DNA of 49,062 bases from Burkholderiales bacterium Ga0077544 (GTDB lineage Bacteria; Pseudomonadota; Gammaproteobacteria; Burkholderiales; Burkholderiaceae_D): the NCBI GenBank assembly GCA_001464355.1, contig LNEU01000024.1, forward strand, positions 1-49,062, read 5' to 3'. Both the position numbers and the translations under genes were made by a program. The notes beneath the pieces are model-generated. The model was not told the DNA's origin. It ran no database searches and saw only the letters and a program-made list of their open reading frames with translations. The stretch's first letter is position 1; each line of letters starts with the position of its first letter. This document shows positions 21,396 through 30,254 of this stretch, in pieces.

Positions 21396-21493
21396 AAACT
21401 TGTTCGTCGTCAGCAACGTTTTTTAAATCATGATAAATTCACGTCTCACTGATGAAGTGATGCGCTGAGTTTTCAACACAACATTCATCAGTA

Positions 21494-21673
21494 CGTTCTC
21501 GGGGCGGGGTGAAATTCTCCACCGGCGGTAATAACGCAGAGTTTCATTATTTTGTGTTTAGCCCGCGAGCGCTTGTTGAAGCTTCAAGTCGATTTCTTCG
21601 GCTTGCTTCACGAGGTCAGCAGACTCGGTGTGATCCCGAGGCCGACGGTCATAGTCCGGATGATAGAGAACGG
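21494..21673 (+). ncRNA. FMN riboswitch (RFN element)
   Basis: Conserved RFN blocks are readable in order: TCTCGGGGCGGGGTGAAATT near 21497, CCACCGGCGGTAAT, then after a variable arm GTGATCCCGAGGCCGACGGT and AGTCCGGATGATAGAGAACG. Opening and closing strands (CGTTCTC and GAGAACG) pair to close the junction. It binds flavin mononucleotide and reduces riboflavin gene expression. The variable arm (about 21545-21615) is longer than the minimal version. The downstream gene is a lumazine synthase, as expected. Confidence 0.95.
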
Positions 21674-21741
21674 GATGATTCATTACTCACTGGCCCTTGC
21701 GGTCATGTGCGTTTGCCATTCCCGCTTGATATTCAAATTGC

Positions 21742-28217: not shown

Positions 28218-29231
28218 ATGAGCAACGAGAACGATCAAGAAAATCAATCCCCGTCCTGGCAGCGGCCTGCCGCGCCAAGTGCCGTCACGCCGAAAAAGGA
28301 AGGTTGGGAACGCGAAGTATTGGAAAAGCTGGCTTTTGCGACTATCAAGGAGCAGCGTGCACGCCGTCGCTGGGGAATTTTCTTTAAGTTTGCTACCTTG
28401 TCCCTGATCGTATTCGCATTGTGGACCAGCTTCGGTCCTAGCGTGAGCGAGATGGAAAATGTCGGCCCGCATACTGCGCTGATCAAGATCGATGGCACCA
28501 TCGAAGCCAAGGGGGCCGGCGATGCAGAAACCGTCATTTCTGCGTTGACTAAAGCGTATGAAGATCCTGGCTCTGTCGGACTCATTTTGCAGATCAATAG
28601 CCCTGGTGGCAGCCCGGTGCAAGCCGGCATCATCAATGATGAAATTACTCGCTTGCGCAAACAATATCCGAAAAAACCTCTGTACGTAGTGGTGAATGAA
28701 ATTTGTGCGTCCGGCGGTTATTACATCGCTGTTGCTGCTGATCGCATTTACGTTAACAAAGCAAGTATCGTTGGTTCGATCGGCGTGTTGATGGATAGCT
28801 TCGGTTTCACCGACGCGATGGAAAAATTAGGTGTTGAACGCCGTCTGCTGACAGCGGGTGAAAACAAAGGCTTTATGGATCCATTCAGCCCGCAAAGCGA
28901 AAAGCAAAAACTTTACGCGCAAGGGATGCTGGATGAAATCCATCAGCAATTTATTGATGTTGTGCGCAAAGGTCGCGGCAAGCGTTTGAAGGAAACGCCA
29001 GAAACTTTCTCCGGCCTTTTCTGGAGTGGTGCAAAATCGGTCGAACTTGGTTTGGCTGATGGCTTCGGTACAGTAGAAAGCGTGGCACGTGAAGAGTTCA
29101 AGTCGACTAACATCGTAGATTACACACAACGCGAAGGTTTGTCGGATCGTGTGTTAAGGAAATTTGGTGCTGCAGCGGGCGCATCAGCAGTCAAGACTTT
29201 TGCTCTGGAAATGACGCCCAGTCTTAAATAA
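28218..29231 (+). CDS. sppA: Signal peptide peptidase SppA, short (36-kDa) form
   Basis: 337 aa S49 protease that degrades cleaved signal peptides in the membrane. An N-terminal cytoplasmic tail is followed by one membrane helix (about 52-72, WGIFFKFATLSLIVFALW). Catalytic Ser165 (EICASGGYYIA) and Lys217 (TAGENKGFMDP) are 52 residues apart, as in the single-domain Bacillus type (Ser147/Lys199), not the double-length E. coli enzyme. NSPGGSPVQAG forms the oxyanion region near 128-137. It lies downstream of the Rieske gene, likely in one operon. Confidence 0.93.
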   Translation: MSNENDQENQSPSWQRPAAPSAVTPKKEGWEREVLEKLAFATIKEQRARRRWGIFFKFATLSLIVFALWTSFGPSVSEMENVGPHTALIKIDGTIEAKGAGDAETVISALTKAYEDPGSVGLILQINSPGGSPVQAGIINDEITRLRKQYPKKPLYVVVNEICASGGYYIAVAADRIYVNKASIVGSIGVLMDSFGFTDAMEKLGVERRLLTAGENKGFMDPFSPQSEKQKLYAQGMLDEIHQQFIDVVRKGRGKRLKETPETFSGLFWSGAKSVELGLADGFGTVESVAREEFKSTNIVDYTQREGLSDRVLRKFGAAAGASAVKTFALEMTPSLK

Positions 29232-29245
29232 TTTTCTTTATTGAA

Positions 29246-29265
29246 AAGAGAAAAATTTTTCTCTT
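29246..29265 (+). terminator. AT-rich palindrome after sppA, possible terminator
   Basis: AAGAGAAAAATTTTTCTCTT is a perfect 20-bp palindrome starting 15 bp after the sppA stop. GC content is low, so it is a weak terminator at best. Confidence 0.45.
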
Positions 29266-29279
29266 ACGCGAAAATCGGC

Positions 29280-29307
29280 TTGTAATTTCATGTCGCTCGA
29301 CTATAGT
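29280..29307 (+). promoter_or_regulatory. Sigma70-like promoter of the candidate small RNA
   Basis: TTGTAA (29280-29285), 16-nt spacer, TATAGT (29302-29307). Predicted transcription start near 29314. No open reading frame follows before the terminator at 29451. Confidence 0.55.
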
Positions 29308-29313
29308 GATTAA

Positions 29314-29478
29314 GCGTTACCGACATCTGAAGGTGTGAATGCAACAACGTCTGCAACTGCTAAGTTGTAACCGCTCGCATTTTGGTAGCGTGTCTTAGTA
29401 AAAAACTGTAGGTCCTTTGACCTCTCCTCATGCTTCCTACGGAAGCAGGCAAAACGGCGGTGAAACACCGCCGTTTTG
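29314..29478 (+). ncRNA. Candidate intergenic small RNA, about 165 nt
   Basis: Bounded by the promoter-like pair at 29280-29307 and the perfect terminator at 29451-29477. Internal structure visible by eye: a GCGTTAC/GTAAC-C-GC long-range pairing, an ACATC-UGAA-GGUGU hairpin and a CGCT...AGCG hairpin. AGGTC-CTTT-GACCT (29410-29423) and GCTTCC-TAC-GGAAGC (29432-29446) follow. Between the last two lies an unpaired TCTCCTCAT (29423-29431), which is complementary to GAGGAG-type ribosome sites. No protein frame, tRNA or known riboswitch pattern fits. It lies between sppA and the convergent methylase gene. Confidence 0.5.
29451..29477. terminator. Strong intrinsic terminator
   Basis: AAAACGGCGGTG (29451-29462), loop AAA, CACCGCCGTTTT (29466-29477): perfect 12-bp stem with T-run. 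It would end the candidate small RNA on the plus strand and the methylase gene (stop at 29502) on the minus strand. Confidence 0.9.
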
Positions 29479-29501
29479 CGTTTACGTATTCATTTCTTTA
29501 T

Positions 29502-30254
29502 TTACTCTGCGAGCAATAAAAACACAGTCGGTTTTTTGTGGAAATCCGGAGCTTTGCCAGATGCACATTCGGCTTTCCATTTTGCAGCGGTTTTAGTTTG
29601 AATCTGCTCCGACGGCAGAGTCAGATCGGTTGCGATGCTGATCAAGGTGTTGCCATTGCAATTGGCTGCCAGTGTTTCCAGCATGCCGGCATTGCGATAG
29701 GGCGTTTCGATAAAAAACTGCGTTTGCTTTTCTGTGCGTGAACGTTCTTCCAGTTGCTTGATGCGCTTGATACGTGCTGCAGAATCAATAGGCAAATAGC
29801 CGTTGAATGCAAAATTCTGTCCACTCAGACCGCTCGCCATTACTGCAAGCAATAAAGAAGAAGGACCAACCAAAGGTTTGACTTGAATACCTTGCGCATG
29901 TGCCAGGCGCACAAGATTTGCACCTGGATCTGCAACTGCCGGTACACCCGCTTCAGAAATTAATCCCGCATCTTGCCCGGCTAATATTGGCTCCAGCAAT
30001 GCAGGTAAATTCTTTGCGTCAGTGTTGACGTTCAGTTCCGCGATCTGTATTTCTTGTATCGGCTTTGTCAGTGGATTACGTATGCCTACCAATTTAAGAA
30101 AAGCGCGTGTGGTCTTGGCATTTTCTGCAATGAAGTAATCGAGCCTGGCGGTCAGTAACTGCACGTCCGCAGGAATGATATGCGCGAGTGCATCGACGTT
30201 TTCAACTTCTGTCGGACCCAGGGTGTTGGGGATAAGGTAAAGGATGCCGGCCAT
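29502..30254 (-). CDS. RsmI/tetrapyrrole methylase-family SAM methyltransferase, short form
   Basis: 250 aa. The N-terminal part has the tetrapyrrole methylase fold: YLIPNTLGPTEVENVDALAH, the motif GLISEAGVPAVADPGANLVR (equivalent to the SDAGTPLISDPG of RsmI) and VGPSSLLLAVMASGLSG. Family members methylate the 2'-O of C1402 in 16S rRNA (RsmI). This protein is shorter than typical RsmI (about 280-290 aa) and lacks its C-terminal extension. It may be the paralogous YraL-like class rather than the true RsmI. It converges with the small RNA locus and is divergent from yceD together with maf. Confidence 0.82.
   Translation of the reverse strand: MAGILYLIPNTLGPTEVENVDALAHIIPADVQLLTARLDYFIAENAKTTRAFLKLVGIRNPLTKPIQEIQIAELNVNTDAKNLPALLEPILAGQDAGLISEAGVPAVADPGANLVRLAHAQGIQVKPLVGPSSLLLAVMASGLSGQNFAFNGYLPIDSAARIKRIKQLEERSRTEKQTQFFIETPYRNAGMLETLAANCNGNTLISIATDLTLPSEQIQTKTAAKWKAECASGKAPDFHKKPTVFLLLAE

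Follow-up and report, generated by a model that had tools for sequence, protein, structure and literature searches.

Does the intergenic stretch between the sppA-like and RsmI-like genes (29280-29479, + strand) carry a gene of its own? The first-pass annotation had proposed that this part of the window (the whole 49,062-nt stretch of DNA analysed here) encodes an independent, uncatalogued small RNA (sRNA). The proposal stands up well: promoter, terminator and folded shape are all kept in relatives, and nothing in Rfam matches. Judged from comparative genomics, the locus is almost certainly a stand-alone small RNA gene. The genome is Herminiimonas-like, its RsmI-like protein sharing 91% identity with the Herminiimonas fonticola protein and 83-84% with those of two other named Herminiimonas. 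We take sppA/sohB and RsmI to be the right names for the two neighbours. The features of the locus are as follows.

28218..29231, + strand: sppA/sohB-like peptidase gene, the upstream neighbour
29280..29307, + strand: promoter, with -35 TTGTAA at 29280-29285, a 16-nt spacer and -10 TATAGT at 29302-29307 (from sequence and relatives)
29314..29484, + strand: predicted RNA of about 166-171 nt, the 5' end placed about 7 nt after the -10 element and the 3' end just past the terminator stem
29314..29391, + strand: 5' domain closed by stem P1, 29314-29321 with 29384-29391 (from the fold and the closest relatives)
29323-29327/29332-29336, + strand: small hairpin of the 5' domain
29337-29342/29377-29382, + strand: stem P2 of the 5' domain, plus an inner hairpin
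29339..29398, + strand: 19-codon ATG frame within the RNA, not supported as a gene
29410..29423, + strand: hairpin hp2, AGGUC-CUUU-GACCU (from the fold)
29424..29430, + strand: unpaired linker CTCCTCA, the first-pass annotation's candidate seed (from the fold and relatives)
29431..29447, + strand: hairpin hp3, UGCUUCC-UAC-GGAAGCA (from the fold and relatives)
29449..29479, + strand: intrinsic terminator, a perfect 14-bp stem (29449-29462 with 29466-29479) with loop AAA
29502..30254, - strand: RsmI-like methyltransferase gene, the convergent neighbour

The first point to note is how little the window can decide when taken singly. The promoter reported earlier, TTGTAA-N16-TATAGT, is in the sequence and is sigma-70-like, but a scan of both strands of 28900-29800 for promoter-like matches finds one against 0.8 expected, which is the chance level. 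The estimate of about 165 nt with several hairpins agrees with the predicted RNA, whose fold over 29314-29484 has an energy of -66.5 kcal/mol (z -5.9, with none of 200 shuffles as low); much of this energy comes from the terminator. The terminator stem is perfect, as had been described, but is 14 bp long, not 12. Since the promoter statistic for the single sequence is at chance level and the fold is largely that of the terminator, the case has to be made by comparison with relatives.

A DNA search of 195 genomes of the family, the Oxalobacteraceae, gave matches in 28. Nine of these, all of the window's own genus (the window included, some of the others bearing the name Herminiimonas), align over most of the stretch; the other 19, from other genera, match mainly over the terminator. 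In 27 of the 28 loci the match lies between sppA and the RsmI-like gene, the remaining one (L021) having the RsmI-like gene only, and the intergenic sequences have their elements in a common order, from promoter through 5' domain and hairpins to terminator. Averaged over the eight close relatives, identity to the window is 0.87 in the 5' domain and 0.94 in the terminator; it is 0.52 in the stretch from sppA to the promoter and 0.36 beyond the terminator. In its own genome the RNA is single-copy, the second match being the terminator palindrome read on the other strand.

A covariance model from related genomes had been suggested as a check. Such a model (R1) was built for the 3' part from 18 sequences outside the window's genus. 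Of 245 family genomes, 140 match it at E 0.01, the window's own among them, and these fall in 25 of 44 genera. The matches in five genomes (G215, G209, G082, G232 and G116) are false by gene context; without them about 135 genomes remain, in at least 23 of the 44 genera, the five taking one genus out entirely and genus g30 (L193) being uncertain. About 90 of these genomes were read and about 45 left unread. The unit in L193 (genome G084) is RNA-like, with a weaker promoter (TTGACT-16-TACACT) and no sppA in the stretch. Eight in-family matches (L201, L202, L203, L205, L206, L211, L212 and L213) were rejected by context, and terminator loops like GCGCAATGC are also present in hairpins that have no relation to the RNA (L202, L211, L212 and L213). 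Genome G095 has the RNA after sppA (L170) and also a second RNA-like unit (L171, C19:334-428), which lies near a contig start with a 16-nt-spaced promoter and no sppA in the stretch, and is a duplicate or a contaminant.

R1 also matched 15 of 399 genomes sampled from the order. Five of these are family members; the other ten were taken by eye to be plain terminator hairpins, an ORF list being at hand for L145 alone. Among the sampled genomes, then, the RNA was seen only in Oxalobacteraceae. The closest nine (L003-L011) score 39.3-47.5 bits with R1, and hp1, a hairpin found in most other genera, is absent from all of them. Opposite-strand matches of R1 to the terminator palindrome alone reach 20.7-33.6 bits. 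As the scores of the nine are low by this measure, their place in the family depends no less on synteny, promoter and hairpin order than on score.

TTG-N19-TATANT, which has the 16-nt spacer, is present in 78 of 88 loci (one per genome, taken from model matches), against 0.25 expected from dinucleotide shuffles, and CTTG..TATANT in 77. Spacers of 12-15 and 17-20 nt give 0 to 2 loci each, and 21 nt gives nine. Flanking bases that the pattern did not ask for are also common, with C before TTG in 80 of 82 loci and G after the -10 element in 59 of 82; six of the 88 have no match even with a looser rule. In the window's own genome the heat-shock promoter pattern CTTGNAW-N16-TATANTG occurs here and at one other place, and since the reversed control also gives one match, no regulon can be read from it.

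The 3' hairpins vary in sequence and keep their pairs. Of 30 pairs in a first, 18-sequence alignment, 13 show changes in both partners, and none of 500 shuffles reached the observed value on any of five measures. With 86 distinct sequences, such double changes appear in 29 of the 30 pairs, with 92.9% of cells paired, counts that lean towards the R1 structure because the alignment (A6) was fitted to R1 and R1's 18 source genomes recur in it. The covariation score of the 86 sequences is 0.514, compared with 0.238 (sd 0.006) in shuffles that keep column make-up but not relatedness, none of 500 reaching the observed value, and with 0.085-0.141 when slid. The closest nine alone show both-side changes in 9 of 47 predicted pairs; within these sequences hp3 changes on both sides in four of its seven pairs. 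Because three alignments (A2, A4 and A5) place hp2 one base off in some rows or omit it, this hairpin was read by eye for the window's genus; its outer A-U pair appears, again by eye, as G-C in some relatives. The check among relatives named by the first-pass annotation thus came out, at the level of sequence, in favour of the gene, promoter and terminator being conserved and no known family matching. It is the relatives, not the single sequence, that demonstrate a predicted unit beyond chance.

The position of the RNA raises the question of whether it is simply the 3' untranslated or terminator region of sppA, with no separate gene. Indeed, 84 of the 88 loci have sppA upstream and on the same strand (the exceptions are L121, L179, L193 and L196). 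The palindrome with which sppA had been said to end is present just after the gene (29246-29265), but is a loopless, A/T-rich run of 20 bases with two G-C pairs in ten, in the poorly conserved stretch of identity 0.52. For this reason sppA may also be served by the terminator of the RNA, and read-through from sppA may add to the RNA level. Against the 3'-region explanation stand the conserved promoter spacing and four loci of one genus (L179, L196, L204 and L207, genus g42) that keep the RNA without sppA beside it; the genes before the RNA there look HAD and Rieske-type, presumably sppA's usual neighbours.

The converse arrangement is also found. The absence check covered 20 of the 105 model-negative family genomes, 18 of which have sppA, in 19 loci. 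No promoter pattern occurs within 480 nt of sppA in any of the 19, and 13 have an empty site, with rsmI ending 0-114 nt after sppA; one of the 19 (L257) resembles a diverged copy of the RNA missed by R1. Outside the family 54 genomes matched sppA, and among the 27 loci listed none has such a unit beyond it, a single promoter match at +257 (L234) being taken as chance. The RNA without sppA, the empty sites within the family and the 27 loci outside it together indicate that the predicted RNA belongs, in these samples, to the Oxalobacteraceae and is separate from sppA, and that a mere sppA 3' region is highly improbable.

Nor does the RNA go with its other neighbour. The methylase gene had been said to point the other way, and rsmI is indeed convergent in the window; an RsmI-like gene was found in 48 of the 88 loci, whose flanks are short. 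With the next gene convergent and the unit closed by a terminator, a cis-acting leader or riboswitch was rejected. As its stem is a palindrome, the terminator may also serve rsmI.

The 5' domain is near-constant in the closest nine sequences, where its GUGAAUGCAACAACGUC is invariant (9/9), and is different in other genera. A P1-like stem at the 5' end ranks at or above 95% of 30 shuffles each in 32 of the 86 RNAs. The domain also bears on an earlier statement that the unit has no reading frame: there is a 19-codon ATG frame, but it carries no coding signal. The RNA could in principle be the mRNA of a small protein (19-23 codons, MQQRLQ...RSHFG), or have both functions, given that all nine closest sequences have the ATG frame and five have GAAGG or GGAG shortly before it. 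The substitutions do not behave as coding changes, with 4/5/6 variable columns at codon positions 1/2/3 over 14 codons in the closest nine and six of the 14 codons changing the amino acid. In L011 the frame runs to at least 42 codons, the invariant bases fit the pairing of P2, and no matching frame was seen by eye in other genera among the sequences listed. We therefore regard a small-protein mRNA as very unlikely.

The first-pass annotation had placed the recognition site elsewhere, in a CUCCUC exposed between two hairpins, by which the sRNA would pair with GAGGAG ribosome sites and block translation. The exposure is indeed predicted: flanked by hp2 and hp3, CTCCTC (29424-29429) is mostly unpaired in the window, with probabilities of 0.72-0.98 per base. 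Its conservation argues the other way, however. The motif is kept in four of the closest nine, in none of the genus's three Oxalicibacterium-like sequences and, overall, in 8 of the 86 RNAs; in the closest 12 sequences only about three bases of the linker (UCC) are nearly constant. With CUCCUC kept in only four of the nine, a general anti-ribosome-site seed is unsupported, and we consider such a function improbable.

A different element recurs in the 5' domain of many genera, namely a purine run resembling a ribosome site (AAGGAGG, GGGAGG or AAGGGGGG, often followed by GATAT). An A-to-G change in such a run keeps the pairing with the 3' end of 16S rRNA, as G-U. This suggests that the RNA might bind a protein or the ribosome rather than pair with mRNAs, docking on the 30S subunit or on another protein as a decoy. 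A Shine-Dalgarno-like run lies in the first 60 nt of 36 of the 86 RNAs (at +11 to +22 in 34), and its frequency is 0.46 per RNA, compared with 0.12 in shuffles (82 RNAs). No obvious start codon follows at the usual distance, and no frame common to the genera was seen after the run by eye among the sequences listed. On the other hand, the window lacks the run, the closest nine show only GAAGGUG, GGAGAUG or GAAGAUG at a similar place (L011 none), and its neighbourhood may pair in P2. A protein-binding RNA fits the conserved helices without a family-wide unpaired seed as well as an mRNA-pairing one does; on the whole, we judge a protein- or ribosome-binding role unlikely. More unlikely still is a specific form of it, in which a family-wide RNA would act on the ribosome or another conserved machine, not on single mRNAs: the 3' scaffold would present the 5' purine element as a ribosome-site mimic without a start codon, titrating or timing 30S subunits, and would be lost as a unit in several lineages. 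The element is AAGGAGG-like in many genera and weaker (GAAGG or GGAG) in the window's genus.

The explanation we prefer overall, to which we give a probability of roughly one in two, is that the locus forms a gene of its own, specifying a structured regulatory sRNA with a scaffold and a recognition domain. Transcription of this RNA of about 170 nt, on the + strand, would start at a sigma-70-like promoter and stop at a terminator, both belonging to the gene itself. The 3' part of the RNA (hp2, hp3 and the terminator, with the extra hp1 in most other genera) would be a scaffold kept by shape and not by letters, most likely for stability and chaperone binding. Because the P1-closed 5' domain is near-constant in the closest sequences and differs between genera, it would be the likely recognition site for lineage-specific partners, most probably mRNAs bound by base pairing in trans. 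No family-wide unpaired seed was seen in the relatives, the invariant 5' stretch being genus-specific, and we hold the trans-acting mechanism only tentatively, at a little under even odds.

The chaperone might be Hfq or ProQ, both families being encoded in the genome. Of 88 loci, 65 have an A-run of at least three on the 5' side of the terminator and 63 have a longest U-run of four; where the U-run pairs with A, few unpaired U remain for Hfq. ProQ is a possible chaperone. According to PMC11912907, proteins of the ProQ type contact terminator hairpins in their lower part and depend on single-stranded flanks, and the Neisseria ProQ requires a 3' poly(U) tail; by that account the short free U-run here (mostly four) disfavours ProQ.

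If the preferred explanation is right, this would be a new bacterial sRNA family, present in at least 23 of the 44 genera sampled from a family that is common in the environment. For a predicted sRNA the support from sequence is unusually strong, with constant promoter spacing, covariation in 29 of 30 pairs and presence or absence as a unit, and the RNA is ready for an Rfam covariance model. With a scaffold conserved in shape and joined to a genus-specific 5' domain, the RNA would also be a good example of sRNA recognition sites changing in a gene that is itself retained.

Comparison with catalogued RNAs supports the earlier statement that no known family matches. Searching the whole window with Rfam 15 at the gathering threshold gave only an FMN riboswitch at 21491-21675 (+ strand, 103.8 bits, an ordinary member) and nothing at the RNA locus; no family reached threshold at 17 + 20 related loci. 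The best weak match by bits in 28900-29800, L21_leader, scores 20.5 against a threshold of 36 and was taken as chance. The RNA had been said not to be 6S, and this too is upheld: there is no RF00013 match at the locus, and the genome has its own 6S RNA elsewhere (C27:12930-13108, 62.8 bits). Like the RNA described here, 6S is a stand-alone structured RNA of similar length, but 6S has the shape of one long bulged rod, whereas several separate hairpins are predicted here. Sponges of the CsrB/RsmZ type are multi-hairpin RNAs with a terminator, and so are alike in outline. This assignment was rejected, with no CsrA found in the genome at E 0.001 and GGA motifs not enriched (2.96 per RNA against 2.82 in shuffles).

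Two published sets come closer by lineage. The sRNA set of Herbaspirillum seropedicae (PMC7011215) comes from the same bacterial family and has RNA-seq; its main text, the part consulted, does not mention sppA, sohB or rsmI. Herbaspirillum huttiense (L038) has 67 nt between sppA and rsmI. The Burkholderiales-1 motif, an unassigned candidate RNA of Burkholderiales with no Rfam number and marked uncertain, is known to us from its table entry alone (PMC2864571) and may or may not be the same RNA. Open-licence full texts, supplements left out, yielded no description of the RNA.

The nearest general class is that of the Hfq/ProQ-associated trans-encoded sRNAs of Proteobacteria. As in these, the RNA is intergenic and about 170 nt long, with its own promoter, several predicted hairpins and an intrinsic terminator; the promoter is conserved, and a conserved promoter and an intrinsic terminator are among the marks of a trans-encoded sRNA. 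It differs in that no family-wide unpaired seed is seen and the U-run is mostly four. With the Burkholderiales-1 motif compared by description only, the predicted RNA would be a new sRNA family within a known kind of sRNA.
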